Part shown: piece by piece, positions 3,248-64,000 of the stretch | Position numbering within the stretch: the first letter of the stretch is position 1 | How the letters are laid out: each line of letters starts with the position of its first letter | DNA from: Halomonas sp. H10-9-1 | GTDB taxonomy: Bacteria; Pseudomonadota; Gammaproteobacteria; Pseudomonadales; Halomonadaceae | Length of the DNA: 64,000 bases | Assembly: GCF_040147005.1 (NCBI RefSeq) | Contig: NZ_JAMSHO010000001.1 | Coordinates: forward strand, 3,286,001 to 3,350,000 | Direction of reading: 5' to 3' | Made by a program: the position numbers and the translations under genes | Notes under the pieces: generated by a model | The model's input: the letters and a program-made list of their open reading frames with translations, nothing else | Told to the model about the DNA's origin: nothing | The model's database searches: none

Positions 3248-5584
3248 TTAGGTAGACCTACGCAGCCGAAGTGCATTGAACACCACCGAGGCTGAACTCA
3301 AGCTCATCGCCAGCGCTGCAAACATCGGTGAGAGAAGAAGCCCGACAAATGGGTACAGGACACCGGCGGCCAACGGTACGCCCAGGGCGTTGTAGATAAA
3401 CGCAAAGCCAAGGTTTTGCTTCATATTGATGACGGTTTTGTCTGACAGGTGGCGAGCCGTAGAAATACCGCGCAAGTCCCCCTTAACCAGCGTGACTTGG
3501 GCGCTGTTCATCGCCACATCGGTCCCCGTGCCCATGGCAATCCCTACATTGGCCTTAGCTAGTGCCGGCGCATCGTTGATGCCATCCCCCGCCATCGCCA
3601 CAGTCCGTCCTTCGGATTGCAGCTGATTAACCAGATCGAGCTTGTCGCCAGGCGTGACTTCACCATGAACTTCGTCGATACCCAGGCGTTCGGCCACTGC
3701 CTTCGCGGTCGATACCCCATCGCCGGTCGCCATGATGACGCGAATCCCTGCAGCTTTAAGGACTTGCACAGCTTCAGGTGTGGTCTGCTTGATGGGATCG
3801 GACACCGCCAGCAATCCTGCCAATTTGCCATCCATCGCGAGATACATAACGCTCGCACCCTTGATCCGGAAAGATTCAGCGACGTCACTCAATTCAGCCA
3901 CATCGACACTTTCCTGCTGCATGAGTGCGGTATTGCCCAAGACCAGTACCTTGCCATCTACTCGACCCCGTACACCAATGCCGCTACCTGATTCGAAGTC
4001 GTCCACCGGGCTGAGGCTCAACCCGCGCTCGCGGGCAGCACTGACAATCGCATCGGCAAGAGGGTGTTCGCTACCTTGATCCAGGCTGGCGGCTATACGG
4101 AGAACCTCATCAGGGTCCATATCACCAGCGGCGACGGCTTCATCGAAAGCCGGGCGACCCTCAGTGAGAGTGCCTGTCTTATCGACGATGAGCGTATCCA
4201 CTTTGCGCAGGTTTTCTATCGCTGCCGCATCCCGGAACAGGACACCCTGCGTCGCACCACGACCGGTGGCCACCATCACGGACATTGGCGTAGCAAGGCC
4301 CAGGGCGCAAGGGCAGGCGATGATCAACACGGCGACCGCGTTGATCAAGCCGTAGACCCAACTGGGCTGCGGACCATAAATACCCCACACGAACAGAGAG
4401 ACAACAGCGATCACGACCACTGCCATAACGAAGTAGCCGGCCACCAGATCGGCCATCCGCTGCATCGGGGCCCGCGAGCGCTGGGCTTGCGCCACAAGGG
4501 TAACAATTTGCGACAGAACCGTGGCGGAACCGACTTTCTCTGCGCGAATTACCAGTGCACCTGATGTATTCATGGTTGCGCCAATCACCTTATCGCCCGG
4601 CCGCTTGCTCACCGGAAGGGATTCCCCCGTCAACATGGATTCATCAAGAGAACTGGCGCCTTCTTCCACGACGCCATCAACAGGCACTTTCTCGCCAGGG
4701 CGCACGCGCAGGCGGTCACCTTCATGCACGTGCGTCAACGGCACGTCCTCTTCTGTGCCGTCATCCCTGATGCGGCGGGCCGTTTTGGGTGCCAGACCGA
4801 GCAATGATCTGATGGCGGCGGAAGTCTGCGACCGGGCGCGGAGTTCGAGCACCTGACCGAGCAGGGTGAGGGAGATAATCACCACGGCAGCCTCAAAATA
4901 CACGCCGACACGACCCATGGTTTGGAAGGTCTCAGGGAAAATACCCGGCGCGACCGTGGCGACAGTACTGTAGACAAACGCTGCCCCTGTCCCCAGACCA
5001 ATCAGCGTCCACATGTTGGGGCTACGGTTGATAACCGAATGCCAACCGCGGACAAAGAATGGCTGTCCCGCCCATAACACCACCGGCAACGACAGCACGA
5101 GTTCAATCCATGTTTGTGTAGAAATGTCGAGCCAACCAAGCTGTGGGCCGAACATGGCGAGCACGGTGACGACGATAGTGAACGGTAGCGTCCACCAAAA
5201 TCGCTGCGAAAAATCTTTCAATTCTGGATTGTCATCATCAAGACTGGGCATCATCGGCTCGAGTGCCATGCCACACTTGGGACAGATCCCCGGGTGATCC
5301 TGTTCAATTTCAGGATGCATTGGGCAGGTATAGAGGGTTCCTGGCTCCCCCTGATCGAGATCGGATTCTCTTGTGTATTGGGGGTCCATGAATTTTTCAG
5401 GGTCGCTTTCAAAAGCTCGCATGCACTTTGGGCTGCAAAAATAGAAATCACTGCCTTTATGTGTCACGTGATGAGGGGACTCTTCTGTTACCTTCATACC
5501 GCACACGATATCTGTGAGTTGCGGGCCAGAGTCCGGCTGCTCTATGTTTTGATTAGGTGAGTGCTCACATTTCTGCTGCGCCAT
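3248..5584 (-). CDS. Copper/silver-translocating P-type ATPase (CopA/SilP-like)
   Basis: Inner-membrane P1B-type ATPase that exports Cu(I) or Ag(I). The N-terminus carries a YHS domain (about residues 25-67, DIVCGMKV...FYFCSPKC) and then a heavy-metal-binding segment (85-112, CPMHPEI...CPKCGM) in place of classical HMA domains. The transmembrane metal site is CPC at 424-426 and the phosphorylated Asp468 lies in [12 protein letters not shown] and GDGIND motifs are present. The length, 778 residues, is usual for this subgroup. Ribosome-binding AAAGGG lies upstream of ATG 5584 and a TTGACA hexamer sits at 5631-5636 on the minus strand. Cu(I) versus Ag(I) preference cannot be read from sequence. 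Confidence 0.92.
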
Positions 5585-8909: not shown

Positions 8910-10595
8910 ATGAATCGTCGCCAATTCCTGAGTTACTCGGCCCTGGGTGGCCTGGTGTTGTCATCGGCCGGCTATATGGCGCTTGCCGCCACCCGCGAGC
9001 CTTTCCACGGCCTGACCGCTGCCATGCTTCCTGAAGGTGGCCAGCCGCTTCAACCGCTGCCACGTATCACCAACTTGAGCAGTTCACCCGGCCGCTTTCG
9101 CAGCGCACTGACTCCGGCTGCCCATGCGGTGCCTTTGAGTGATGAGCTTAAGGCCAAGCTGTGGCTCTACAACGGCAAGGTGGCACCTCTTATCGAGGTG
9201 CGCGAGGGCGATGAGCTGGACATTACCCTCGTCAATGAACTGGAGCAGGAGACCACTGTGCACTGGCATGGTGTGCCCGTTCCCCAGACGCATGATGGTG
9301 CCCCCTGGGATGCCGTGGCTCCGGGCGAATCGCGCCGCTATCACTACACTTTCCCCGAGGGCAGCGCCGGCCTGCATTGGTTCCACCCTCACCCTCATCA
9401 GGGCACCGCCCGGCAGGTGGCACATGGCCTGGCCGGCGCGTTGCTGGTGCGCCCGCCTCAGGATGTGCTGCCGTCAGACGTGGAGGAGCACCTGTTGGTG
9501 GTCAGCGACCTGCGCCTGACCGAACAGGGCAACGTGGCGCCGCAAACTGCCGTGGATTGGATGAATGGCCGTGAGGGCGAGCTGCTACTGGTCAACGGAC
9601 AGCGCGAGCCGCGCCTCGATGTGGCACCGGGTACCACTCTGCGTCTGCGGCTGATCAACGCCTGTGCCGGTCGCTACCTACGCCTACGGCTGGACGAGCA
9701 CGAACTGATGCTGATTGGCACCGACGGCGGGCTGATCGAGCGACCGCAACCGATAGAGGAGCTGCTACTTACCCCGGGCGAGCGCGCCGACCTGCTAGTG
9801 CGAATAAGCGACAGGCCAGAGGGGCGCTTCTGGCTTGCCAGCCATCCCTACGAGCGTGGCTGGATGGGACCCAAGCCGCCTCATCTGGACGAGGTCGCGC
9901 CGTTGCTGGCGATCCACACCCGCAACTCGAGCGTTCATCCCGCTGTTGCGTTGCCCGAACGGTTAGGCCGTGTCGAACCGCTGGGCGAGCCCGCGGTGCA
10001 GCGTCGGGTGGAGCTGACTGAGGTGATGCCGGGCCATGGTGCTCACGGCGCTGAGATGGCTCACGGTGAGGGTGGCCACGGCGACCATGGCGGCATGTCT
10101 GAGGCAGGGGTGGGTCATGCCGCTCACGGCGGTGCTGGGATGGCCCACGGTGAGGGTGGGCACGGCGACGCTCATGGAATGGAGCATGGCGCACCTCAGG
10201 CGGACCAGACAGGGCATGGAGAGGGTCACGGCATGCCCGGGATGCCCGGTCGGCCCGAGGTGGACTTCCTGATTAACGGCCGCGCTTTCGCCATGGACGA
10301 GATCCTGTTCGAGGGCCGGGTCGGCGAGGTGGAGGAGTGGGAGGTGTTCAATAATTCCCATATGGACCACCCCTTCCACGTGCACGGCACCCAGTTCCAG
10401 GTGATCGCGACTCGCGATGCCGACGGTGAGTGGCGCGAAACCCCCTGGCTGGCCTGGAAGGACACAGTCAACCTGGCGCCCTATCAGCGCATGACGTTAC
10501 GCATGGTGTTCCGCAAGCCAGGTGACTGGCTATTCCACTGCCACATCATCGAGCACGAGGAACTGGGGATGATGGCGACCATCCGCATGAGCTGA
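8910..10595 (+). CDS. Multicopper oxidase (CueO/CopA-like), periplasmic
   Basis: A 561-residue oxidase probably exported by the Tat route (NRRQFLSYSA start, RR at 3-4). Copper ligand motifs are all present: HWHG at 118, HWFHPHPH near 152, HPFHVHG near 488 and HCHIIEHEELGMM at 543, so type 1, 2 and 3 centres should form. Residues ~372-447 are a Met/His/Gly-rich insert containing a duplicated MAHGEGGHGD unit, as in copper-tolerance oxidases that bind extra Cu(I). It likely oxidises Cu(I) in the periplasm. lgt follows 129 bp downstream after a stem-loop. Confidence 0.92.
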   Translation: MNRRQFLSYSALGGLVLSSAGYMALAATREPFHGLTAAMLPEGGQPLQPLPRITNLSSSPGRFRSALTPAAHAVPLSDELKAKLWLYNGKVAPLIEVREGDELDITLVNELEQETTVHWHGVPVPQTHDGAPWDAVAPGESRRYHYTFPEGSAGLHWFHPHPHQGTARQVAHGLAGALLVRPPQDVLPSDVEEHLLVVSDLRLTEQGNVAPQTAVDWMNGREGELLLVNGQREPRLDVAPGTTLRLRLINACAGRYLRLRLDEHELMLIGTDGGLIERPQPIEELLLTPGERADLLVRISDRPEGRFWLASHPYERGWMGPKPPHLDEVAPLLAIHTRNSSVHPAVALPERLGRVEPLGEPAVQRRVELTEVMPGHGAHGAEMAHGEGGHGDHGGMSEAGVGHAAHGGAGMAHGEGGHGDAHGMEHGAPQADQTGHGEGHGMPGMPGRPEVDFLINGRAFAMDEILFEGRVGEVEEWEVFNNSHMDHPFHVHGTQFQVIATRDADGEWRETPWLAWKDTVNLAPYQRMTLRMVFRKPGDWLFHCHIIEHEELGMMATIRMS

Positions 10596-14547: not shown

Positions 14548-14710
14548 CCGGCCATTCCATTTCATCGTGACCGATTTCGGCCTCTTTCCCGGAATCCGCG
14601 GTCACGATGTCGGAATCCTCGGTCACGTTCCCGGAATCTCACCTAACTCGCTGGAATGATTCGGACTTTTACGGCATACCCCTCCTTTTGTCTTTGCCCT
14701 GGAGGTGGAC

Positions 14711-16249
14711 ATGCCAGCACCGAGGATTCCCATGCGAACCATCACCGAGGTGTTGCGCCTCAAGTACGACGCCGGCCTCAGCCACGAGAAGATTGCGCGG
14801 GCCTGCGGCCTCTCCAAGGGCGTGGTCAGCAAGTACGTCAGCCTGGCCCAGGTGGCCGGCATCCGCTGGCCGTTGCCCGACGGCACCGACGAGGCGGCGC
14901 TGGAGGCGCGGCTGTTCCCGGCCAAATCGCCGCCGATGCGCTTCTCGGCGCCGGACTACTTCCAGGTCCACCAGGCGCTCAAGCGCAAGGGCGTCACCCT
15001 GCAGCTGCTGTGGGCCGAGTACGTCGAGGTCCACGGCGACAAGGCCTACCGCTACAGTCGGTTCTGCGATCATTACCGCGCCTGGCGGGACCGCCAGCGG
15101 CGCAGCATGCGTCAGGTCCACCGCGCCGGCGAGAAGCTGTTCATCGACTACTGCGGCCCGACCGTGCCGATCATCAACCAGGCCACCGGCGAGGAGCGAC
15201 GGGCCCAGGTGTTCGTTGCCGTGCTGGGCGCCTCCAGCTACACCTACGCCGAGGCCACCTGGAGCCAGGCGCTGCCCGACTGGATCGCCTCTCACCAGCG
15301 CGCCTTCCAGTTCCTGGGCGGTGTCCCCGAGCTACTGGTGCCCGACAACCTGAAGAGCGCCGTGACGCGGGCATGTCGCTACGAGAGCCAGCTCAACGCG
15401 ACCTACGCCGAGATGGCCCAGCACTACCAGGTCGCGGTGCTGCCGGCGCGGCCTTACAAACCCAAGGACAAGGCCAAGGCGGAGGCCGCGGTGCTGTTGG
15501 TGGAGCGCTGGATCCTGGCCCGACTGCGCCACCACACCTTCTTCACGCTGGCCTCGCTGAACCAGGCCATCCGCGAGCTGCTGGAGGATCTCAACCGCCG
15601 ACCCTTCCAGGGCCGCGAGGAGAGCCGGCGCGATTTGTTCGCGGCCATCGACCGGCCGGTGCTGCGCCCGCTGCCGGAGACGCCCTACGAGTACGCCGAG
15701 TGGCGCAAGGCCAGGCCCGGCATCGACTACCACCTCGACCTCGACAAACACTTCTACAGCGTCCCTCACAGCCTGGTCGGCCAGGTGCTGGAGGTGCGCC
15801 TGACCCACGCCATGGTGGAGGTGTTCCACAAAGGGCAGCGGGTGGCGGCGCACCCGCGCCACGCCCCGGGACGTTTCTCGACCCTGGCCGAGCACATGCC
15901 CAAGCGTCACCAGGCCCACCGCGACTGGTCGCCAAGCCGCTTCCTGGACTGGGCGAAGGACATCGGCGTCGCCACCCTGGAAATGACCCAGCGACAGCTG
16001 CAGGACCGCCCCCATCCCGAGCATGGCTACCGTGCCTGCCTGGGCCTGTTGCAGCTCAGCCGGCGCTACGGCAAGGCCCGGCTGGAGCAGGCCTGCGCGC
16101 ATGCCCTGGCGATCCCCACCACCCGCTACAGCAGCATCGCCTCGATCCTCAAGCAGGGGCTAGATCAGCAGCCGATGCTGACGCTCCCCGAGGCGCTCGA
16201 TGACTTGCCGCCCCACACCAACGTGCGCGGTGCCGAGTACTACCACTGA
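14711..16249 (+). CDS. istA: IS21-family transposase IstA
   Basis: A 512-residue transposase. Residues ~5-60 hold an HTH (LSHEKIARACGLSKGVVSKY). The DDE catalytic residues are Asp146 (FIDYCGPT), Asp212 (VPDNLKSAV) and Glu258 (KDKAKAEAAV), about the family spacing. ATG 14711 is chosen because GGAGGT lies just before it; the in-frame GTG 14705 overlaps that site. It is followed closely by istB. It appears intact. Confidence 0.93.
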   Translation: MPAPRIPMRTITEVLRLKYDAGLSHEKIARACGLSKGVVSKYVSLAQVAGIRWPLPDGTDEAALEARLFPAKSPPMRFSAPDYFQVHQALKRKGVTLQLLWAEYVEVHGDKAYRYSRFCDHYRAWRDRQRRSMRQVHRAGEKLFIDYCGPTVPIINQATGEERRAQVFVAVLGASSYTYAEATWSQALPDWIASHQRAFQFLGGVPELLVPDNLKSAVTRACRYESQLNATYAEMAQHYQVAVLPARPYKPKDKAKAEAAVLLVERWILARLRHHTFFTLASLNQAIRELLEDLNRRPFQGREESRRDLFAAIDRPVLRPLPETPYEYAEWRKARPGIDYHLDLDKHFYSVPHSLVGQVLEVRLTHAMVEVFHKGQRVAAHPRHAPGRFSTLAEHMPKRHQAHRDWSPSRFLDWAKDIGVATLEMTQRQLQDRPHPEHGYRACLGLLQLSRRYGKARLEQACAHALAIPTTRYSSIASILKQGLDQQPMLTLPEALDDLPPHTNVRGAEYYH

Positions 16250-16265
16250 TCCGAGGAGACGACCG

Positions 16266-17021
16266 ATGATGACCCAGCCCCTGCTCGACACCCTGCGCCG
16301 CCTCAAGCTGACCGGCATGTATGACGCACTGGCCCACCAGCTCACCCAGCCGGACACCTACGACCTGCCGTTCGAGGATCGCCTGGGCATGCTGCTCGAC
16401 CGAGAGGTCCTGCATCGCGATAACCGCCGCCTCGACCGGTTGCTGAAGACCGCCAAGCTGCGGGTGACGGCCTGCGTCGAGGACATCGACTACCGCCACC
16501 CTCGCGGCCTGGAGCGGGGCCGCATGGCGCCGCTGGCCACCGGCGAGTGGATCGGCCAGTCCCTCAACCTGTGCCTCACCGGCCCCACCGGGTGCGGCAA
16601 GACCTGGCTGGCCTGCGCGCTGGGCAACCAGGCCTGCCGGCAGGGTTACTCGGTGCGCTACCTGCGGGTGCCGCGCCTGTTCGAGCAACTGCGCATCGCC
16701 CAGGGCGACGGCTCCTACGCCCGGCTGATGGGCCAGCTGCAGAAGACCGACCTGCTGATCCTCGACGACTGGGGGATGCAGAAGATGACCGCCCCGCAGC
16801 GCCAGGACCTGATGGAGGTGATCGAGGACCGGCACGGCCGGGGTTCGACGCTGATCGCCAGCCAGCTGCCCATCGAGCACTGGCACGACTACATCGGCGC
16901 GGCGACGGTGGCCGACGCCATCCTGGACCGGCTGCTGCACAGCGCCCACCGCCTGACACTCAGAGGAGAATCGATGCGCAAGAGCGCCGCCCCGCAAGCG
17001 GCAGAAGTTGACCCATCGTGA
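16266..17021 (+). CDS. istB: IS21-family helper ATPase IstB
   Basis: A 251-residue AAA+ ATPase related to DnaC that assists IstA in target selection. Walker A GPTGCGKT is near residue 104 and Walker B DLLILDDWG near 163. GAGGAGAC precedes ATG 16266, 16 bp after the istA stop. The stop codon overlaps one terminal CGTGACCG repeat of the element. Confidence 0.93.
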   Translation: MMTQPLLDTLRRLKLTGMYDALAHQLTQPDTYDLPFEDRLGMLLDREVLHRDNRRLDRLLKTAKLRVTACVEDIDYRHPRGLERGRMAPLATGEWIGQSLNLCLTGPTGCGKTWLACALGNQACRQGYSVRYLRVPRLFEQLRIAQGDGSYARLMGQLQKTDLLILDDWGMQKMTAPQRQDLMEVIEDRHGRGSTLIASQLPIEHWHDYIGAATVADAILDRLLHSAHRLTLRGESMRKSAAPQAAEVDPS

Positions 17022-17025
17022 CCGG

Positions 17026-17811
17026 TCAGCTTACAAAACCAGAGCCAGCGAGAGAGGAGTGAGCAGATCGGTCACGATCCCCGGAATGACCGGTCACGTT
17101 CGTCGGAATACGCACCTCGAGCGCCTCCAGTGCTTCGGCCACCTCGGCCAGGCTGATCTCGGCGGGCGTTCCCTCCATCAGCAGATGAGCGGCGTCGCGC
17201 AGGATGCCCCAACTCGCCCAGAGCAGCACCACGCCGAAAGCGATGCCCAGGATCGGGTCGATGAGCAAGAAACCGGTATAGCGGATCACCAGGGCGGTCA
17301 CGATGATCAGAATGCTACCCACGAAGGTCTGGATGATATGCCACAGCGCACCCCGCACATTCAGATCACTTCGACTCTGCTTCCAGATCAGGCCCAGCGA
17401 AATGAATTCGGTCAGCAGGCCGCCGGCGGCGGCCCATAGCATCGGCCCCGTGGGCAAATCGATCGGATCCGTGAGCCGCATGGCACCCATCGCGATCACG
17501 ACGAGCGCCATGCCGAGCAGGAAACCGCCATTGACCAGCGCACCGATGATCTCGGCGCGATACCAGCCGAAGCTGCGCGCTTCGTCCGCCGGGCGGCGAG
17601 CGAGCCGGGCGGCAGTGATGGCCACCAGCACGCCGCCCACAGCCGAGAAGGTATGAAAGGCATCCGAGATCACCGCGACCGACCCGGTCCAGAGACCGAT
17701 GCCCATCTCGATGAAGAAGTAGACCCCTGTCAGCCAGGCCGATATGGCCATGCCGGGCCCGCTGGTGGGCATGTGTCCCGCGTGGCCATGGCTGCGGCTT
17801 TCAGGATCCAT
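17026..17811 (-). pseudogene. Cation diffusion facilitator transporter, C-terminus removed by IS21
   Basis: From ATG 17811 (AAGGA upstream) the protein has a His-rich start and six transmembrane spans, then reaches the start of the cytoplasmic domain at AEVAEALEALE. Beyond 17114 the sequence is IS-derived, so most of the ~80-residue C-terminal dimerisation domain is missing. The metal-site helices are unusual: helix 2 has SDAFHTFSAVGG and helix 5 has HIIQTFVGS, so the usual HxxxD/DxxxD acidic residues are partly replaced. It is third in an operon after the YHS and DUF5676 genes. Reduced or lost function is likely. Confidence 0.7.
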
Positions 17812-17916
17812 AGGACTTTTCCTTATCTTGAAACAGAATTGATAGCGCCGGCACACGCCCACGGAACATTCTTGGCGCTATTCAAGGCATGCAGATAGGT
17901 GGTCTCGAGAGGTGGT

Positions 17917-54263: not shown

Positions 54264-55160
54264 ATGGCCTGGCTGGAATACCTGCTCCCACTGATCTTCC
54301 TGTTCCCCCTCGCCGCCATGGGGGTGATCGTGGTGGCGCTGCGCAACCTGCACGATGCTCGGGTGCGCTCCCCCTTCGACGCCCAGCCGCTGCGCGAGCC
54401 CGGCCAGCACCTGCGCGACCGTCTCGACAACGCCTTCGCCGGGCTCTACCTGAACGCTGCCCTGGGCCCCATCATCACCCTGGCTCCGCTGGTCTACGGC
54501 ATGGGCCGCATGCTCTTCGCCACCGAGCAGCGCTGGGTCGAGTGGTCGCTCTATGGCGCCCTGAGCACCCTGCTGGTGCTGACCTACAGCTTTCGCTTGA
54601 TGCGTGACTTCCAGCGCATCCGGCGACTCAAGCTAGGCCTGGCCTGCGAGCTGGCGGTGGGTCAGGAGCTCGAGCGGCTGGTGCGCCCCGAGGCCCACCC
54701 CTTCTACGTCTTCCACGACGTGCCGGCGGCCGACACGCGCATCGACCACGTGGTGGTCACGCCCTGCGGGGTCTTCGTGGTGGAAACCCGCGCCCGCACC
54801 CGCCCCTTCGCGCCTTCCGGGGAAGAGCTTGACCGGCTGGTGGTGGAGGAGGCGCGGTTGCGCTTCCCGGGCTGGAGCGAGCGCAAGCCCCTGGCCAGGA
54901 CCCGCGAGCTGGCGCGCTGGATGGCCGAGTGGCTGAGCTCACGCACCGGCCGCACGGTGCCGGTGATGGGCGTGCTGACCCTCCCCGGCTGGAAGGTGGA
55001 GGCCGACCAGGGGCCGGATGACTTGCTGGTGGACAGCGGCGACGGCCTGGCCAGCCGCCTGGCCGACCTGTGCCCCGGCGAGTTCGATGCCGCCACCCAC
55101 GACGCCGTCATCGCCACCCTGCTGGAGCATGCCGGCACCGGCCAGGCGCCGGGAGCCTAG
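54264..55160 (+). CDS. Membrane-anchored NERD (nuclease-related) domain protein
   Basis: A 298-residue protein with N-terminal hydrophobic spans (about 5-27, 63-110) and then a NERD domain from ~130. Asp/His in DTRIDHVVVTPCGVFVVETRA mark the nuclease-like core, though the usual Lys of VVExK is Arg. AGGAAT precedes ATG 54264. Role is unknown; it is not obviously part of the Wadjet operon. Confidence 0.8.
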   Translation: MAWLEYLLPLIFLFPLAAMGVIVVALRNLHDARVRSPFDAQPLREPGQHLRDRLDNAFAGLYLNAALGPIITLAPLVYGMGRMLFATEQRWVEWSLYGALSTLLVLTYSFRLMRDFQRIRRLKLGLACELAVGQELERLVRPEAHPFYVFHDVPAADTRIDHVVVTPCGVFVVETRARTRPFAPSGEELDRLVVEEARLRFPGWSERKPLARTRELARWMAEWLSSRTGRTVPVMGVLTLPGWKVEADQGPDDLLVDSGDGLASRLADLCPGEFDAATHDAVIATLLEHAGTGQAPGA

Positions 55161-55180: not shown

Positions 55181-56530
55181 TCAGTCGCCGCGCAGGCGGC
55201 CGCCCATCTCCTGGGCCAGGTCCACGGCGTAGTGGTCGGTCATGCCGCCGATGAAGTCGAGCATGCGCCGGTAGCTGGCGTAGAGGCTCCAGGAGGGGCG
55301 CGGGGTGTTCTCGCCGATCAGCGCCAGCACTCGCTGGTGCTTGAAGGTGGAGTGACCGGTGTGATGCAGCTCGTGGGCCGCGCCGATGAAGGCCTCGAGC
55401 AGGATGCCCAGGGTGGTGTAGGCGCCGATCTCCAGCTTGGCCTTGCGCTCGTTCTGGAAGATCCGCTCCCGGGCCAGTTGCTTGGCCGCCTTCACCCCCC
55501 AGTCCAGGTCGGGATGACACAGCTCCAGCAGATCCGAGCGCAGGCGGCCACCGAGCAGCTCGGCCTCGTGCTGCACGAAGACGGCCCCCACGTCGTTCAC
55601 CGCGCGCTCCATGGCTGCCCCCCGCAGGGCGGCGATACGCCGCCGCTGGGAGACCCCCTGGCGCTGCATGGCGACGTAGTCGCCGGGAGCGCCGCCGGCG
55701 ATCTGGATCAGGATCTCGGCGACCTCGTCATAGCGCAGGATGCCCATCTCCAGGCCATCCTCCAGGTCGAGCAGCGCATAGCAGATGTCGTCGGCAGCCT
55801 CCACCAGCCAGGCCAGGGGATGACGACACCAGCGCCCCTCTCCCCTGGGCAGCAGCCCCAGCCGCTCGACCACCTCGACCAGCAGCTCGCGCTCGCTCTG
55901 GTAGCAGCCGAACTTGCCCGCCGCGCCGCCGTGCTCCACGGTCCAGGGGTACTTGAGCAGGGTCCCCAGGGTCGCCGTAGTCAAGCGCATGCCGCCGCGG
56001 AACTGGTTGTACTCGATCTGGGTGACCACCCGAAAACCCTGGGCGTTGCCCTCATAGGTGAGCAGATCCTCACGCTCCAACGGCGAAAGCCCATCGAGCA
56101 GGCCCTTGCCATCGGCCTCGGCACGCGTGAACCAGTCGCGGATGGCGTACTCCCCGGCATGTCCGAAGGGCGGGTTGCCGATGTCGTGGCCCAGGCAGGC
56201 GGCCTGCACGATCACTCCCAGGTCGGCCGGGGTAATCCAGTCGGGCAGGCGGCCGCTCAGCCGCTCGCCGACGATCATGCCCAACGAACGCCCTACGCAT
56301 CCCACCTCCAGGGAGTGGGTCAGGCGGGTATGGATATGATCGTTGTCGGTCAGCGGGTGGACCTGGGTCTTGCGCCCCAGGCGCCGGAAGGAACCGGCGA
56401 AGACGATGCGGTCGTGGTCCTTGTGGAAGGGGCTGCGGCCGATCTCACCGCGGCCGCGGGGCTCGCCGCGGCGGTCGTGCAGGCGGCTTGGGTCCAGCAG
56501 CCGCTCCCAGCTCATCTGCGTCATGGGCAT
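55181..56530 (-). CDS. dgt: Deoxyguanosinetriphosphate triphosphohydrolase-like protein
   Basis: A 449-residue HD-domain dNTPase. RRLGRKTQVHPL, TRLTHSLEV, HDIGNPPFGHAGE and the later EAADDICY supply the HD metal site. It hydrolyses dGTP or other dNTPs. It diverges from jetA with 90 bp between start codons, so the two may share a promoter region; dGTPases in other systems can act in phage defence, but nothing here shows it. Confidence 0.92.
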   Translation of the reverse strand: MPMTQMSWERLLDPSRLHDRRGEPRGRGEIGRSPFHKDHDRIVFAGSFRRLGRKTQVHPLTDNDHIHTRLTHSLEVGCVGRSLGMIVGERLSGRLPDWITPADLGVIVQAACLGHDIGNPPFGHAGEYAIRDWFTRAEADGKGLLDGLSPLEREDLLTYEGNAQGFRVVTQIEYNQFRGGMRLTTATLGTLLKYPWTVEHGGAAGKFGCYQSERELLVEVVERLGLLPRGEGRWCRHPLAWLVEAADDICYALLDLEDGLEMGILRYDEVAEILIQIAGGAPGDYVAMQRQGVSQRRRIAALRGAAMERAVNDVGAVFVQHEAELLGGRLRSDLLELCHPDLDWGVKAAKQLARERIFQNERKAKLEIGAYTTLGILLEAFIGAAHELHHTGHSTFKHQRVLALIGENTPRPSWSLYASYRRMLDFIGGMTDHYAVDLAQEMGGRLRGD

Positions 56531-56620
56531 CTCTCCTTGAGGATCTCATTCTGGCACTGCCTCCCGCTATCTTGCCATCATCGACTTGGGCCACGGCACA
56601 TGCCAGGTTATCCTGTGCCG

Positions 56621-58090
56621 ATGATGCGCTACCTGGATTTCGACTACCTTCAGCAGCTGCGCCGCGGCCATCCGGCCTGGACGCTGCTGCGTGCCGAAAA
56701 TGCACCGATGATCATCGGCTTCCTGCACCGTGCCTTCATCGCACCCAATGTGCGCAGCATCGCCGAGCCGCCGCTGGCCGCCCAGCTCGACGACTGGCTC
56801 CATCATCTGCGTCAGGAACTCGGCGAGGAGGCCTTCCCTCGCGAGGCCATGGCCTACCTCAACGAGTGGGCCGACGACCGGCACCGCTGGCTGCGCAAGT
56901 ACTACCCTTCCGCGGGCGACGAACCGCACTTCGACCTTACCCCGGCCGCCGAGCAGGCCATGCACTGGCTTGCTGGTCTCGAGCAACGCCGGTTCATCGG
57001 CGCAGAATCGCGCCTCAAGCAGGTCTTCGATCTGCTGCGCGAGATCGACCGCGGTAGCGAAACCGACCCCGAAGCCCGCATCCGGGACCTGGAGCGGCGC
57101 CGCGATGCCATCGACGGCGAGATCGCCGAGATCCGCGCCGGGCGCCTCGACCTGATGGCGACGACGGCCCTGCGCGAGCGCTTCCTGCAGATGACCGACA
57201 CCGCACGGGCACTGCTCGCCGACTTTCGCCAGGTCGAACAGAACTTCCGCAGCCTCGACCGCGAGGTGCGTGAGCGCATCGCCACCTGGGAAGGCAGCAA
57301 GGGCGAGCTGCTCGAAGAGGTCTTCGGCGATCACGATGCCATCCGCGACTCCGACCAGGGACGCAGCTTCCACGCCTTCTGGGAGTTCCTGATGTCGCCG
57401 GCTCGCCAGGAAGAGCTCACCGAGCTGCTGGAGCGTACCCTGAGCCTGGAGCCGGTCGCCGAACTGGCCCCCGACCCACGCCTGGTGCGCATCCACTATG
57501 ACTGGCTGTCGGCCGGCGAAGTGGCTCAGCGCACCGTCGCCCGGCTCTCCGAGCAGCTACGACGCTACCTGGACGATCAGGGCTGGCTGGAGAACCGCCG
57601 CATCATGGACATCCTGCACAACATCGAACGCCACGCCCTGGCCCTGCGCGAGAACGCCCCCCAGGAGGAGGTGATGGCCCTCGACGAGCCGGTGCCCCGC
57701 CTCGAGCTGCCCATGGAGCGTCCGCTGTTCCGTCCGCCCGTCAAGCCGCGCATCACCGCCGCGCGCCTGGCCAGCGGCGACGACCGGGAGATCGCCGCCG
57801 AGGCGCTGTTCGACCAGCACCATGTGGACAAGGAGCGCCTGCGCGCCCGGGTGCGGCGCGCGCTGCAGACCCGCGACCAGGTCACCCTCGATGAGCTGCT
57901 GGCCAACGAGCCGCTCCAGAAGGGGCTCGCCGAACTGGTGGCCTGGCTGGCCATCGCCACCGAGGGCCGGCACGGGCTGCTCGACGAGGCCCATCCCCAA
58001 GAACTCGTCTGGCAGGACGACCAGGGGGGCTGGCGGCGCGCCCGCCTGCCGCGCGTCATCTTCACCCGTCAACCGGTGCCCACCCCATGA
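56621..58090 (+). CDS. jetA: Wadjet anti-plasmid protein JetA (DUF3375, MksF/kleisin-like)
   Basis: A 489-residue kleisin-like subunit of a type I Wadjet complex, which recognises and cuts invading circular DNA. It starts MMRYLDFDYLQQLR and has the family RGHPAWTLLRAENAP and FGDHDAIRDSDQGRSFHAFWEFL segments, with coiled-coil forming helices between. The frame is open far upstream, but that part is antisense to dgt; ATG 56621 (or 56624) begins the conserved region. The stop overlaps jetB (ATGA). Confidence 0.9.
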   Translation: MMRYLDFDYLQQLRRGHPAWTLLRAENAPMIIGFLHRAFIAPNVRSIAEPPLAAQLDDWLHHLRQELGEEAFPREAMAYLNEWADDRHRWLRKYYPSAGDEPHFDLTPAAEQAMHWLAGLEQRRFIGAESRLKQVFDLLREIDRGSETDPEARIRDLERRRDAIDGEIAEIRAGRLDLMATTALRERFLQMTDTARALLADFRQVEQNFRSLDREVRERIATWEGSKGELLEEVFGDHDAIRDSDQGRSFHAFWEFLMSPARQEELTELLERTLSLEPVAELAPDPRLVRIHYDWLSAGEVAQRTVARLSEQLRRYLDDQGWLENRRIMDILHNIERHALALRENAPQEEVMALDEPVPRLELPMERPLFRPPVKPRITAARLASGDDREIAAEALFDQHHVDKERLRARVRRALQTRDQVTLDELLANEPLQKGLAELVAWLAIATEGRHGLLDEAHPQELVWQDDQGGWRRARLPRVIFTRQPVPTP

Positions 58091-58692
58091 GCGACATGCC
58101 ATCCGACTCGCCGACGCTCTCCAGCGAGCGGCACTTCTCGCTGACCCTGATCGCCCTGATGAAGGGCGTGCTCTATCAGGACCGCGATCCCGGCCAGTGG
58201 CAGGACCTACTCGACCACCAGGCGCGACTGCGCGATCACCTGGCCCCGATGGGGCTGTCGCTGATGCTCGACGAGGCCGAAGGTTACGCCTACCTGAGCC
58301 AGCGACCGGACGACGACGAAAACCCGCTGCCCCGCCTGGTGCGTCGCCAGCCGCTGAGCTACCCGGTCAGCCTGCTGCTGGCACTGCTGCGCAAGAAGCT
58401 TGCCGAGCAGGATGCCGGGGGAGACGAGCTGCGCCTGATCCTGTCCCGCGAGCAGATCCAGGAGATGCTCGCGCTGTTCCTCGCCGACACCAGCAACGAG
58501 GCACGCCTGCGCGACCGCCTCGACGGCCATATCAACAAGGTGGTGGAGCTGGGTTTCCTGCGTCGCCTGAAGGGCGATACGCAGCACTACGAGGTGCGCC
58601 GCCTGCTCAAGTCCTTCGTCGATGCCCAGTGGCTCGCCGAGTTCGAGCAGCGCCTGGCCGAATACCGTGAACATGCCGAGGAGGAGCGCTGA
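58087..58692 (+). CDS. jetB: Wadjet anti-plasmid protein JetB (DUF4194, MksE-like)
   Basis: A 201-residue winged-helix (KITE) subunit that binds the kleisin. FSLTLIALMKGVLY and NPLPRLVRRQPLSYPVSLLL are family segments. It overlaps jetA by four bases and jetC follows after one base, so the operon is tightly coupled. Confidence 0.9.
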   Translation: MSDMPSDSPTLSSERHFSLTLIALMKGVLYQDRDPGQWQDLLDHQARLRDHLAPMGLSLMLDEAEGYAYLSQRPDDDENPLPRLVRRQPLSYPVSLLLALLRKKLAEQDAGGDELRLILSREQIQEMLALFLADTSNEARLRDRLDGHINKVVELGFLRRLKGDTQHYEVRRLLKSFVDAQWLAEFEQRLAEYREHAEEER

Positions 58693-58693
58693 C

Positions 58694-61600
58694 ATGCAGC
58701 TCGGTGAACTCGACTTCGGCACGGCACCGGGGCGCGCCGGCTTTCGCCTGCAGCACCTGGAAGTCTACAACTGGGGGACCTTCCACCGGCGCGTGTGGCG
58801 ACTGGACGCCGGCGGCGACAACGCCCTGCTAACCGGTGACATCGGCTCCGGCAAGTCCACCCTGGTCGACGCCATCACCACCCTGCTGGTGCCCGCCCAG
58901 CGCATCACCTACAACAAGGCAGCCGGCGCCGAGGCCAAGGAACGCAGCCTGCGCTCCTACGTGCTCGGCCACTACAAGAGCGAACGCGGCGAAGCGGGGC
59001 TCAGCGCCCGGTCTATCGGCCTGCGCGACCACAACAGTTACTCGGTGATCCTCGGCCACTTCTACAACGAGGGGTTCGACACCCACGTGACCCTGGCCCA
59101 GGTGTTCTGGATCACCGACACCCAGGGCCAGCCGGAGCGCTTCTACGTGGTGGCCGACCGTGAACTGGCCATTGCCGGCGACTTCGACGACTTCGGCAGC
59201 GACCTCAAGCAGCTGCGCAAGCGCCTGCGCGACACGCCCCATGTCGAGCTCCACGACAGCTTCCCGCCCTATGGGGCCGCCTTTCGCCGCCGCTTCGGCC
59301 TGGGTGCCACCAACAACCAGGCCATGGAGCTGTTCAACCAGACGGTGTCGATGAAATCGGTGGGCAATCTGACCGACTTCGTGCGCACCCATATGCTCGA
59401 GGCGCTGCCCATGGAGGAGCGCATCACCGGCCTGATCCGCCATTTCGACGACCTCGACCGCGCCCACGTCGCCGTGCTCGAGGCGCGGCGCAAGATCGAG
59501 GCGCTGGGCCCTCTGGTGGAGAACCTCGACCGGCATGAGGCCCTGGCGACACGGCAGGCCGAGCAGGTCGAAGACCGCGAGGCGCTGAAGAGCTACTTCT
59601 CCCACCACAAGGCCGCCCTGCTGGAACGCCGCCTGGAGCGCCTGGACGCGGACCTGGCGCGCCTGGCGACCCGGCTCGACGAGCTGACCGAACAGCGTCG
59701 CCGAGAGGCCAGCCAGCGTGACGACCTGCGCCAGGCGATTGCCGACAGCGGCGGCGACCGCCTGGCCCAGCTGGCCCGCGAGATCGAGGCGCTCGGCGAG
59801 ACACGCGACCGTTGCCGCCGGCGCGCCGACCGCTACCGGGAGCTGGCCGAGGCGGTGGGCCTCGAGGTCGCCGCGGATGCCGAGGCCTTCCAGGCCAACG
59901 CCGCGGCCGTCGACCGGGCACTGGCGAGCCTGGACGACGACGAGAACGCCCTGACCGAGCAGCGTACCGAACATGAGCTGACGTTGCGCGGCCTGAAGGA
60001 CCAGCATGATGCGCTCGACGCCGAGCTGGCCTCGCTGCGCGAACGCCGCTCCAACCTGCCAGCGCGCATGCTCGCCTTGCGCGAGCGGCTCTGTGTGGCC
60101 ACCGGCCTGGAGGAAGGCACCCTGCCCTTCGCCGGCGAGCTGCTGCAGGTGCGCGAGGAGGCCCGCGACTGGGAAGGCGCCGCCGAACGGGTGTTGCACA
60201 ACTTCGCCCTCTCGTTGCTGGTGCCCGACGCCCACTATGCCGAGGTCGCCGACTGGGTCGAGCGCACCCAGCTACGCGGCCGCCTGGTCTACTACCGGGT
60301 GCGCCGCACCCAGGCCGCCGCGCCCTCGCTGCATCCCGAGTCGCTGGTGCGCAAGCTGGCCATTCGCCCCGACAGCGACCACTACCCCTGGCTGGAGCAG
60401 GAGCTCGGCAAGCGCTTCGACTATGCGTGCTGCTGCGACCTCACCCAGTTCCGCCGCGAGCAGCGCGCCCTGACCCGCAACGGCCAGCTCAAGACCGGCG
60501 GTGAACGCCACGAGAAGGACGACCGCCACCGCCTCGACGACCGCACCCGCTATGTACTGGGCTGGAGCAACGAGGCCAAGATCGCCGCCCTGGAGGCCGA
60601 AGCCGGAACCCTGCAGCGGCGGATCCAGGCAAGCGCCGCCCGGGTGGCCGAGGTCCAGCGCGAGCAGCGCCGGCTCGGCCAGCGACGCGGCGACCTCAGC
60701 CACCTGCAGGGCTTCGAGGAGTTCCAGGAACTCGACTGGCGCACCCCGGCGGCACGGCTGGCCAGCCGCGAGGCAGAGCGCCGCAACCTGGAAGAGAGTT
60801 CCGACCGGCTCAGGACGCTGCAGGCCCAGCTGCAGGAGCTGGAGGCCGCCAGCGCAGCCACCGAGGCGGCCTGGGGCAAGGCCCAGAGCGAGCAGGGCAG
60901 CCTGAAGGCGCGGCGCGAGGCGGCCGACACCCAGCTCGCGGAAGCCCGTTCACTGGTCGAGAGCCTCGCTGCCGAGCGGCGCCAGGTCAGCTTCCCGCGC
61001 CTCGATGCCCAGCGCCCCCAGGCCCTGGGCGAGCACCAGCTCAGCATCGAATCCTGCGACAACCGCGAACGGGAAATGCGCGACTGGTTGCAGGCGGCCA
61101 TCGACGCCTGCCAGAAGCAGCTCGACCGGCTGAGCGAGGCGATCGTCAAGGCCATGCAGCACATCCGTACCGAATGGCCCCAGGACACCGAGGAAGTGGA
61201 CGCCAGCCTGGCCGCCGGCGACGACTATCGTGCGCTGCTGGCGGCCCTCCAGGCCGATGACCTGCCACGCTTCGAGGCGCGCTTCAAGCAGCTGCTCAAC
61301 GAGAACACCATCAACGAGATCGCCGGCTTCCAGGCCTTCCTCAACCGCCAACGCGAGGACATCAGAGATCGCGTCGCCACCATCAACGCCTCGCTGCACG
61401 ACATCGACTACAACCCGGGGCGCTATATCCGCCTGGTCGCCGAACCCAGCCCCGATGCCGAGGTCCGCGACTTCCGCCAGCAGCTGCGCGCCTGCACCGA
61501 GAGCACCCTGAGCGGCAGCGACGACGAGCAGTATTCCGAGGCAAAGTTCCTGCAGGTCAAGGCGATCATCGAACGCTTCCGCGGCCGCGAGGGCAGCAGC

Positions 61601-62077
61601 GAACTCGACAGGCGCTGGACCCGCAAGGTCACCGACGTGCGCCATCACTTCCTGTTCTCGGCCTCGGAGCGCTGGCGCGAGGACGACAGCGAGCACGAGC
61701 ACTACTCGGATGCCGGCGGCAAGTCGGGCGGCCAGAAGGAGAAGCTCGCCTATACCGTGCTGGCCGCCAGCCTGGCCTACCAGTTCGGCCTGGAGTGGGG
61801 CGAGAGCCACTCGCGCTCGTTCCGCTTCGTGGTCATCGACGAGGCCTTCGGCCGCGGCTCCGACGAATCCGCCCGCTATGGGCTCGAGCTGTTCGCCCGG
61901 CTCAACCTGCAGCTGCTGATCGTCACCCCGCTGCAGAAGATCCACATCATCGAGCCCTATGTGGCCAGTGTGGGCTTCGTGCACAACGAGGAAGGCCGCC
62001 AGTCGATGCTGCGTAACCTGACCATCGAGGAGTACCGCGCGGAGAAGGCCGCCCGGGAACGGGTCGAGGTTCTGTGA
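58694..62077 (+). CDS. jetC: Wadjet anti-plasmid protein JetC (SMC-like ATPase, MksB)
   Basis: A 1127-residue SMC-type ATPase. Walker A GDIGSGKST at residues 48-56; long coiled coils with a central hinge; ABC signature GGKSGGQKEKLAYT near residue 1014; Walker B VVIDEAFGRG with Asp1049/Glu1050. It loops DNA by ATP-driven extrusion, enabling the complex to sense small circular plasmids. ATG 58694 is just after the jetB stop, with GAGGAG before it. Confidence 0.93.
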   Translation: MQLGELDFGTAPGRAGFRLQHLEVYNWGTFHRRVWRLDAGGDNALLTGDIGSGKSTLVDAITTLLVPAQRITYNKAAGAEAKERSLRSYVLGHYKSERGEAGLSARSIGLRDHNSYSVILGHFYNEGFDTHVTLAQVFWITDTQGQPERFYVVADRELAIAGDFDDFGSDLKQLRKRLRDTPHVELHDSFPPYGAAFRRRFGLGATNNQAMELFNQTVSMKSVGNLTDFVRTHMLEALPMEERITGLIRHFDDLDRAHVAVLEARRKIEALGPLVENLDRHEALATRQAEQVEDREALKSYFSHHKAALLERRLERLDADLARLATRLDELTEQRRREASQRDDLRQAIADSGGDRLAQLAREIEALGETRDRCRRRADRYRELAEAVGLEVAADAEAFQANAAAVDRALASLDDDENALTEQRTEHELTLRGLKDQHDALDAELASLRERRSNLPARMLALRERLCVATGLEEGTLPFAGELLQVREEARDWEGAAERVLHNFALSLLVPDAHYAEVADWVERTQLRGRLVYYRVRRTQAAAPSLHPESLVRKLAIRPDSDHYPWLEQELGKRFDYACCCDLTQFRREQRALTRNGQLKTGGERHEKDDRHRLDDRTRYVLGWSNEAKIAALEAEAGTLQRRIQASAARVAEVQREQRRLGQRRGDLSHLQGFEEFQELDWRTPAARLASREAERRNLEESSDRLRTLQAQLQELEAASAATEAAWGKAQSEQGSLKARREAADTQLAEARSLVESLAAERRQVSFPRLDAQRPQALGEHQLSIESCDNREREMRDWLQAAIDACQKQLDRLSEAIVKAMQHIRTEWPQDTEEVDASLAAGDDYRALLAALQADDLPRFEARFKQLLNENTINEIAGFQAFLNRQREDIRDRVATINASLHDIDYNPGRYIRLVAEPSPDAEVRDFRQQLRACTESTLSGSDDEQYSEAKFLQVKAIIERFRGREGSSELDRRWTRKVTDVRHHFLFSASERWREDDSEHEHYSDAGGKSGGQKEKLAYTVLAASLAYQFGLEWGESHSRSFRFVVIDEAFGRGSDESARYGLELFARLNLQLLIVTPLQKIHIIEPYVASVGFVHNEEGRQSMLRNLTIEEYRAEKAARERVEVL

Positions 62078-62078
62078 G

Positions 62079-63305
62079 GTGAAGACGCAACCCCGCGCCT
62101 GGACCACGCCGGAGGAGATCCGCCGCCAGTTGCAGCGCCACTGGGACAGCGGCGCCATCCTCGCCGCTCGCCTGCCGGCCGACGGCGGCGAGCCGCTGTT
62201 TCCGCTGGCACTGCGCCTGCGCCGCCCCACGGCCCGGGACATCACCGAACGCTTCGCCGAGGTGGCCGCCTGGGTCCGGCGGCTGCGTAACGGCAGCCGC
62301 GATGCCCTGGGTCATGGCTACGTCATCGAGTTCCGCCGCCAGGGCAACCGGGTGCAGGGCAGCAACGAGCTACCCGCCGCACTGAGCGTTCCCGACGCCG
62401 AGGACGCCCTACGGCTGCTAGGCCGGCGGCGTGATGCCGAGCGCTTCGATGCACTGGCCGCGGAGATCCTCGCCCGCCAGCCGCGGCTGGCCCACTGGCT
62501 GCGCCGACGGCCCCTCAAGGTACTGGAGCACGAGGCAAGCTGGCCACGGCTGCTCGCCGTGCTCGAGCACTTCCAGCGCCACCCGCGGCCCGGCTGCTAT
62601 CCGCGCCAGCTGGCGATTCCCGGCGTCGACACCAAGTTCATCGAGGCCCGGCGCGGCCTGCTCGCGACGCTGCTCGACGAGGTCCTGCCGGCCTCGGCCA
62701 TCGACGCCGAGGCCAGCGGGGTGAGCGGCTTCAACCAGCGCTTCGGGCTGCGCAGCCCCTCGCCGCTGGTTCGTCTGCGCCTGCTCGACCCGGCCCTCCA
62801 GGTGCAGGGGCTGAGCGACTTGAGCCTCCCTGCCGAGCAGTTCGCCCGCTTTCGGCCGGCGGTGGAGCGCGTCTTTATCACCGAGAACCAGACCAACGGC
62901 CTGGCCTTTCCCGAGGTGCCCCGCTCGTTGGTGGTCTTCGGGCTGGGCTACGGTCTGGAGCACCTGGTTCGCATCCCCTGGCTCCGGGAGGTCGAGGTGC
63001 ATTACTGGGGCGATATCGACACCCACGGCTTCGGTATCCTCGACCGGGTACGCGCCACGCTGCCCGAGGCCCGCTCGCTGTTGATGGACGAAGCCACGCT
63101 GATGGCCCACCGCCCGCTGTGGGGCGAGGAGCCCGCCGACAAGCGCCTTGGCCATACCCCCGGCCGGCTGACCGACGACGAACTCGCCCTGTTCACCGCC
63201 CTGCGCGACGATCGCCTGGGCGAGCGGGTGCGACTCGAACAGGAGCGCATCGATTTCGACTGGCTCCGGCAAAGGCTCCCCGGTGCTTGCCGAACGACCG
63301 ACTAA
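62079..63305 (+). CDS. jetD: Wadjet anti-plasmid protein JetD (DUF3322/DUF2220, Toprim nuclease)
   Basis: A 408-residue nuclease subunit. The N-terminal part (WTTPEEIRRQLQRHWDSG) is DUF3322-like. The C-terminal Toprim-type domain has Glu269 in FITENQTN and Asp312/Asp314 in GDIDTHG. It cuts DNA after loop extrusion. The start is GTG 62079, one base after the jetC stop; a start in frame with ATG is not available nearby. It completes a jetABCD set. Confidence 0.92.
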   Translation: MKTQPRAWTTPEEIRRQLQRHWDSGAILAARLPADGGEPLFPLALRLRRPTARDITERFAEVAAWVRRLRNGSRDALGHGYVIEFRRQGNRVQGSNELPAALSVPDAEDALRLLGRRRDAERFDALAAEILARQPRLAHWLRRRPLKVLEHEASWPRLLAVLEHFQRHPRPGCYPRQLAIPGVDTKFIEARRGLLATLLDEVLPASAIDAEASGVSGFNQRFGLRSPSPLVRLRLLDPALQVQGLSDLSLPAEQFARFRPAVERVFITENQTNGLAFPEVPRSLVVFGLGYGLEHLVRIPWLREVEVHYWGDIDTHGFGILDRVRATLPEARSLLMDEATLMAHRPLWGEEPADKRLGHTPGRLTDDELALFTALRDDRLGERVRLEQERIDFDWLRQRLPGACRTTD

Positions 63306-63347: not shown

Positions 63348-63574
63348 ATGAAATACTCCGATAACCTCAAGCCGATCAGCTACCTCAAGGCTCATGCCGC
63401 CGAGATCTCCCGCTCGCGCAACAAGTTGCGCGAGCCGATGGTGATCACACAGAACGGCGAGGCACGGCGGGTCGTGCAAGACCTCAAGAGGCCTCGGTCT
63501 TCGGGGGGCTCCGCGAGCTTTACGATTTCATCGCCGAGGAGTCGCCCGAGGCGGCGGCTCGGCTGCTGGGGTAA
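63348..63574 (+). pseudogene. Decayed Phd/YefM antitoxin and ParE toxin remnant
   Basis: ATG 63348 starts a Phd/YefM-like antitoxin (MKYSDNLKPISYLKAHAAE, then REPMVITQNGEARRVVQDL). After about residue 48 similarity ends. Shifted by one frame, the DNA reads LRELYDFIAEESPEAAARLLG and stops at TAA 63572-63574; this matches the N-terminal helix of ParE toxins. The antitoxin's 3' end, and most of the toxin, appear to have been lost by deletion. The pair is probably inactive. Confidence 0.6.
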
Positions 63575-63590: not shown

Positions 63591-64000
63591 CTATGGCCGC
63601 TGGCGCCGCATCAGCCAGTGGAACAGCAAGCCCCCTACCAACAGGGCGATGGCGAACAGGTAGATCCCCACCGAGATACCACTGTTCCAGATGATGCTCC
63701 AGTCGCCCCCGGAGATCGACATGGCGCGGCGCAGGTTGTACTCCATCTGGCCGCCCAGCAGCAGCCCCAGCACCACCGGCACCGTGGGAATCTCCAGCTT
63801 GCGCAGCACATAGCCCAGCACGCCGAAGGCCAGCATCAGGTAGAGGTCGAAGGCGCTGTTGCCGAGTGAGTAGACGCCGACGAAGGCGATCATGACCACC
63901 ATCGGCATCAAGAACCAGCCAGGCGCCCGCAGCACACGGGCGAACAGCCCCACCAGCGGAATATTGAGCGCCAGCAGCATCAGGTTGCCGATGAATAGCG
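63591..64000 (-). CDS. Tripartite tricarboxylate transporter TctA-family permease, 3' part
   Basis: The gene runs off the right edge. The visible ~136 C-terminal residues contain hydrophobic spans and the typical LRKLEIPTVPVVLGLLLGGQMEYNLRRAM stretch given by its ends LRKLEIPTVP and NLRRAM. TctA proteins import tricarboxylates or other organic acids with a TctC binding protein. Its substrate cannot be told from this piece. Confidence 0.88.
   Translation of the reverse strand, partial: LFIGNLMLLALNIPLVGLFARVLRAPGWFLMPMVVMIAFVGVYSLGNSAFDLYLMLAFGVLGYVLRKLEIPTVPVVLGLLLGGQMEYNLRRAMSISGGDWSIIWNSGISVGIYLFAIALLVGGLLFHWLMRRQRP

Follow-up and report, generated by a model that had tools for sequence, protein, structure and literature searches.

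Does the four-gene operon that stands beside dgt in Halomonas sp. H10-9-1 encode a plasmid-defence system likely to work, and how long has it occupied this place? The window analyzed here is a stretch of 64,000 nucleotides (contig NZ_JAMSHO010000001.1, positions 3,286,001 to 3,350,000), and all coordinates below are window positions. An earlier note, made from the letters of this stretch alone, described within it a complete type I Wadjet operon, jetABCD, in the canonical order and with touching or overlapping ends next to dgt; it went on to suggest that the site is a defence hot spot and that dgt and jetA might share their regulation. We find the description of the operon accurate in every particular, and we consider it very probable that this is a complete, functional-looking type I Wadjet (JetABCD) operon; neither of the two broader suggestions is supported. 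For comparison, we used a sample of 90 genomes of the genus, designated by G numbers, in which the window genome (3.79 Mb) is G000.

Identity of the Operon

The four genes are adjacent, co-directed open reading frames (ORFs) on the forward strand, none of them interrupted. The first, jetA (56621..58090), encodes a kleisin-like subunit of 489 aa (DUF3375) that matches PF11855 (E = 7.3e-150), the JetA1 model (705 bits) and PDB entry 8dk1 (E = 4.5e-22). It overlaps by 4 bases with jetB (58087..58692), whose product is a KITE-like subunit of 201 aa (DUF4194; PF13835, E = 3.5e-49; JetB1, 283 bits; PDB, E = 1.4e-9). After a gap of 1 bp follows jetC (58694..62077), an SMC ATPase of 1127 aa (JetC1, 1603 bits; PDB 8dk2, E = 9.3e-62), and after another gap of 1 bp jetD (62079..63305), a nuclease of 408 aa in which DUF3322 (PF11795) is joined to a Toprim domain (PF09983; JetD1, 481 bits). 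The profiles named in the earlier note as a check all match strongly: DUF3375 at 500 bits (cut-off 28.6), DUF4194 at 167 bits (cut-off 32.7), and DUF3322 and JetD_C, both in jetD, at E = 2e-56 and 8e-61. Within jetC, Pfam recognizes AAA_29 (E = 5e-24) and SbcC_Walker_B (E = 8e-23). The best PADLOC models for all four proteins belong to type I, the sole type II match being JetC2 at 24.9 bits, and no NCBIfam model reached its cut-off for the four Jet proteins. With four genes matching at such E values, chance is excluded as a source of the resemblance.

Two of the start codons deserve comment. The GTG with which jetD begins, also remarked on previously, is in translation the only possible ATG or GTG start before the conserved domain. 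The longest ORF of jetC begins at 58622; since the PADLOC profile alignment starts only at residue 26 of this longer frame, and relatives match JetC over its full length from the ATG at 58694, we regard 58694 as the likelier start.

The catalytic residues are intact in alignments to PDB chains, again as the earlier note held. By hand count from the alignments, which is how residue numbers in JetC and JetD were obtained, the Walker A sequence of JetC is GDIGSGKS at residues 48-55; the signature SGGQK and the Walker B sequence VVIDEAF are preserved in the C-terminal part of the ATPase. In JetD, aligned with 8b7f, 7til and 8q72, E269 sits opposite the engineered E248A site of 8q72, and the acids D312 and D314 lie within YWGDID, a motif that is found in the form YWGD[ILM]D in 83 of 86 JetD sequences.

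The jet genes are also under purifying selection. When the genes are joined, the ratio of nonsynonymous to synonymous substitution (dN/dS) is 0.16-0.24 in all 10 pairs formed by five genomes, and taken gene by gene it is 0.14-0.33 in 16 comparisons with the window. From the family to which these proteins belong, we infer the activities of extrusion, cutting and plasmid restriction: JetA, JetB and JetC would together make up an SMC complex, with ATP driving the extrusion of DNA; where that DNA is a small circle, the motors would run into each other and the Toprim nuclease of JetD would cut it; and small plasmids would thereby be reduced in number or lost.

An SMC complex of this architecture might instead belong with the Mks and Muk complexes, serving mainly to organize or segregate the chromosome and having little to do with defence. 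JetB does match Pfam MksE (E = 2e-21), and the top single PDB match of JetD is MksG (E = 1.5e-20), ahead of the solved JetD chain (E = 1.9e-15). We nevertheless consider a chromosomal role of this sort highly improbable. Close homologs occur in only 6 of the 90 genomes, and the window genome, which has a single JetD_C match, carries a separate SMC gene elsewhere (a frame of 1175 codons), so that JetC is not required for the SMC role. MksG itself, moreover, serves a plasmid-defence system as its nuclease, according to PMC10123090.

Evidence for and against Function

Several observations weigh against the conclusion that the operon is a working Wadjet, and they are best considered together. The first concerns JetB. 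According to PMC10586767, characterized JetB proteins carry an N-terminal IFDR motif that contacts JetD. This motif appeared in none of 70 JetB sequences, that of the window included, even when the pattern was relaxed, in a test that counted two genomes twice, took in codons upstream of the chosen start and had no IFDR-bearing sequence as a positive control. IFDR is a trait of the JetB members that have been studied and no defining feature of type I; the JetB of the window does not have it, and the group to which it belongs may join JetD by another route. One candidate for such a route was considered and set aside. The JetA tails of relatives frequently finish in LPxVIFxR (58030-58087 in the window), and a C-terminal IFxR is present in 33 of 63 tails by a strict pattern and in 43 of 63 by a relaxed one, against a background of 0 and 68, respectively, of 2916 windows. 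This element may be no more than the strand that closes the JetA domain; searched against the PDB, the final 79 residues of JetA matched no JetA.

The second observation is that a scan of 56400-56760 for consensus (sigma-70-like) promoters found none before jetA. The third is the company the operon keeps. Contig 2 of the same assembly (C2, L200) is 5,783 bp long and encodes a Replicase/PriCT initiation protein, MobC and a relaxase; the relaxase frame of 500 codons stays open across the contig ends, as a circle would give, and plasmids of Halomonas sp. KG2 and of Cobetia match 44-55% of the contig. Its other ORFs include a RelE/ParE-type toxin and a DUF6290 protein, both named after relatives' plasmid records, and a protein of 319 aa that looks like a coiled coil. 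Since PMC10586767 puts the upper size for Wadjet targets at about 100 kb, and 5.8 kb is far under it, this circular-looking, mobilizable plasmid is nominally a Wadjet target residing beside an intact operon.

The plasmid and the empty promoter scan, together with the decay of the toxin-antitoxin pair that adjoins jetD (see below), would be accounted for if the operon, intact as it is in sequence, were silent or weak in this strain and left plasmids unrestricted. We think this unlikely. The four frames are open and dN/dS is about 0.2 in every pair. Furthermore, there are precedents for coexistence, on account of which we see no contradiction in finding a plasmid and a Wadjet together: in Corynebacterium glutamicum, Mks lowers pBHK18 and leaves pJC1 unaffected, according to PMC10123090, and in F. 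caldus, where all strains are reported to have a type I Wadjet, over half hold plasmids of less than 10 kb, according to PMC12375680. A functional-looking Wadjet remains the reading we prefer. The Rep protein of the plasmid has matches in 4 of the 90 genomes, of which one is a Wadjet carrier. Homologs of JetD, for their part, occur in 12 of 72,556 plasmid records. Six of these cover at least 80% of JetD and lie on replicons of at least 186 kb, which is what the size rule would lead one to expect; among the six partial matches are replicons of 42 and 60 kb.

Age and Loss of the Operon

A JetD match was found in 8 of the 90 genomes. Six are close (G000, G004, G005, G070, G053 and G075; 79-100% identity); the remaining two are a distant match in G059 (37%, on a contig other than that of dgt) and a doubtful short one in G057 (E = 8e-4). 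The G059 locus, on contig 4 (L047), is a distant Wadjet in its own right, in which jetA, jetC and jetD are recognized along with an ORF of the size of jetB between them.

Where the operon lies was examined in dgt neighbourhoods from 78 genomes, comprising 80 loci (G070 and G059 are represented twice); some loci stop at a contig end, and neighbours were recognized by comparison with a defined panel of query proteins. The window genome reads dgt, jetABCD, the decayed pair, tctA-B-C, caiB, hmgL, ntrC and ntrB. In the five carriers whose contig shows both, jet sits to the right of dgt, with pepP in between in G075. Across 78 loci, the gene recognized first on the right-hand side of dgt, within 400 bp, is tctA in 21, ntrC in 16, a POT transporter in 9, pepP in 5, an antitoxin in 5, jetA in 4 and caiB in 2; 16 loci have no such near neighbour, but further on 14 of them carry an alcohol dehydrogenase and the other 2 ntrC.

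The variability of this interval might be taken to mean that dgt marks a defence hot spot and that the Wadjet was inserted there recently. The distribution of the operon on a dgt tree (78 rows, built by a quick method) is indeed scattered, with at least 4 changes needed for five carriers and a count no higher than this in 359 of 500 shuffles; the tree is made from a gene linked to jet, and gain and loss are indistinguishable on it. The cargo, however, argues otherwise, the other identified genes being metabolic or belonging to a toxin-antitoxin pair. Queries left 62 ORFs of at least 100 aa unexplained in the 78 loci (ntrC formed the boundary in 69; the other 9 were truncated at 8 kb or where the locus ends). 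PADLOC detected no defence system among 10 cluster representatives, which stand for 42 of these 62 ORFs, in a comparison covering 78 of the 90 genomes; it matched one representative, an ABC transporter, and only by generic ATPase models. Pfam identified glutaminase, PhnJ, amidohydrolase, metallo-hydrolase, methionine synthase-like and phytase-like proteins among the representatives. The interval from dgt to ntrC is better described as a modular slot that holds mostly metabolic genes, and its standing as a defence hot spot finds no support among the genes identified.

Nor does the insertion appear recent. At synonymous sites, the distances for jet and for dgt differ by no more than 0.1 in 7 of 10 pairs, which argues that the operon is no newcomer; the exceptions (jet and dgt, respectively) are G000-G004 (0.20 and 0.36), G005-G053 (0.45 and 0.31) and G005-G075 (0.53 and 0.35). 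In addition, G081 retains 180 bp of the 3′ end of jetD, which share 80% identity with the close of the G075 operon (E = 5e-39) and stand directly before the toxin-antitoxin pair of G081. By its sequence and position this relic is the scar of a loss, at the same place that the operon occupies elsewhere. With the site's cargo, the divergence of the jet genes and this scar all against it, a recent arrival at a defence hot spot strikes us as quite improbable. The evidence fits, and does not prove, an old occupant that has undergone losses and some exchange between lineages. The scar shows one loss behind the patchy presence of Wadjet; beyond it, gain and loss are not distinguishable.

Remnants of jet were also sought in other Wadjet-free loci. 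Outside G081, the blastn matches were of 32-75 bp (E = 8e-5 to 3e-3); not one of them lies between dgt and a toxin-antitoxin pair, and these candidates are unconvincing. In G003, about 25 bp before the pair resemble the end of jetD in G004 and G005, a stretch too short to count.

The Adjoining Toxin-Antitoxin Pair

Downstream of jetD, at 63348..63568 on the forward strand, a tblastn search with the pair of G005 locates the remains of a Phd/YefM antitoxin and a piece of a ParE-type toxin. The earlier note had called this pair decayed, and so it is. Antitoxin codons 1-47 occupy 63348-63488 (PF02604, E = 5.5e-5, below its cut-off), toxin codons 9-34 follow in another frame at 63491-63568 (69% identity over 26 aa, E = 6e-5), and the remainder of both genes is missing from the window. 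The G005 proteins themselves match PhdYeFM_antitox (E = 1e-14) and ParE_toxin (E = 4e-16). By tblastn, the pair lies downstream of jetD in all six close carriers. Five of these have it at close to its full length, and only the window has it in decayed form; the distant Wadjet of G059 has no such pair. It is found in the slot of 6 of 73 non-carrier loci as well (G078, G003, G013, G048, G066 and G081). The association of pair and carrier status gives a Fisher p of 3e-6, a value that ignores kinship and in which G070, a metagenome-assembled genome with two dgt matches, counts on each side. The jetD stop codon abuts a palindromic, operator-like stretch, GGACTAAATTCAGTCC, ahead of the pair in G004 and G005, and falls inside the palindromic stretch in G053 and G075; in the window the stretch is altered.

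The pair could conceivably act as a stabilizer (an addiction module) of the Wadjet operon in this genus, a proposal we hold to be rather doubtful. In the window the pair has decayed and the Wadjet persists nonetheless, and there are six non-carriers in which the pair is retained. Were the proposal correct, the strain studied here would have lost the stabilizer and yet kept its Wadjet, all the while tolerating a mobilizable plasmid of 5.8 kb.

The dgt Neighbour and Other Features of the Window

The left anchor of the slot, dgt (55181..56530, reverse strand), encodes a housekeeping dGTPase and stands outside the system. Its match to NCBIfam PRK01096 (582 bits, cut-off 439) and its presence in 89 of the 90 genomes bear out the earlier description of this flank as core-type. 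The divergent gap between dgt and jetA measures 90 bp (56531..56620), also as described. On its dgt side, the gap carries the motif CATTCTGGCA, which adjoins dgt in exact form in 25 of the 27 loci compared (of 78), carriers and non-carriers alike; the two exceptions, G053 and G075, are both carriers and have one changed base each. Just upstream of jetA, the gap sequences of five carriers (G000, G004, G005, G053 and G075) have a TATCCT stretch in common. Because CATTCTGGCA is kept irrespective of carrier status, and because of the empty promoter scan, the suggested joint control of dgt and jet finds no support here, and no disproof either.

To the left of dgt lies a gene for a NERD-domain protein (54264-55160, forward strand; E = 6e-11) that is present in many relatives; its dN/dS is 0.14-0.40 in six comparisons and exceeds that of dgt in each. 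On the far side of the slot, the 3′ part of tctA occupies 63591..64000 on the reverse strand (Pfam TctA, E = 2e-18) and continues beyond the window. Near the other end of the window lies a gene for a subtilase (431-2152, forward strand) with a low G+C content at third codon positions (0.38); its match to PADLOC IetS (E = 1e-43) begins at position 165 of the profile. The ORFs directly upstream of it, which were read without a profile search, include no IetA-like gene, and the subtilase may be an orphan or a remnant of an IetAS system. An IS21-type istA/istB pair (14705-17021, forward strand) lies inside a block of metal genes that includes a P-type ATPase (3248-5584), a multicopper oxidase (8910-10595) and a cation efflux protein (17026-17862).

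Comparison with Known Systems

The solved type I Wadjet structures (8dk1-8dk3, 7til, 8as8 and 8q72) have the same four subunits, the same JetC ATPase motifs and the same Toprim acids in JetD. There are differences of detail. The solved JetB chains are about 250 aa long, compared with 201 aa here, and the JetB of the window aligns from chain residue 43 or 60; the Walker B glutamate of JetC is present here (DEAF), whereas the chains of 8dk1 and 8dk2 have DQAF. We take the solved JetABCD entries to come from Pseudomonas aeruginosa PA14 and Escherichia coli GF4-3. Strains of these names do figure in the Wadjet literature (PMC10586767, PMC12647877).

The MksBEFG system of C. glutamicum is a more distant relative. 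Its homologous nuclease, MksG (8b7f), aligns with only residues 157-395 of the 408 in JetD (E = 1.5e-20); entry 8b7f is presumably the C. glutamicum protein. The operon mksFEBG is itself termed a type I Wadjet in PMC10123090.

Among the best 80 of 269 JetD loci, the three closest named relatives are Halomonas, and the next closest (L123-L199, 42-63% identity) are Wadjets of Ectothiorhodospiraceae, Vreelandella, Massilia and others; jetA is found in 63 of the 80, jetB in 65 and jetC in 76. None of the 77 loci L123-L199 shows dgt or the Phd/ParE pair, an absence that is only partly visible since many of the contigs are short. The dgt-jet locus was not found in the open-licence literature on Wadjet, as represented by titles and the beginnings of abstracts.

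In short, this is a system of known kind and no new type of defence, and the details added here are modest and testable. The strain is a natural case of an apparently intact Wadjet together with a small mobilizable plasmid, the persistence of which can be tested in its own host. To the Wadjets already described, this locus adds a well-preserved member; its chromosomal slot is documented, a loss from that slot has left one clear scar, and in one strain the partner pair has decayed.

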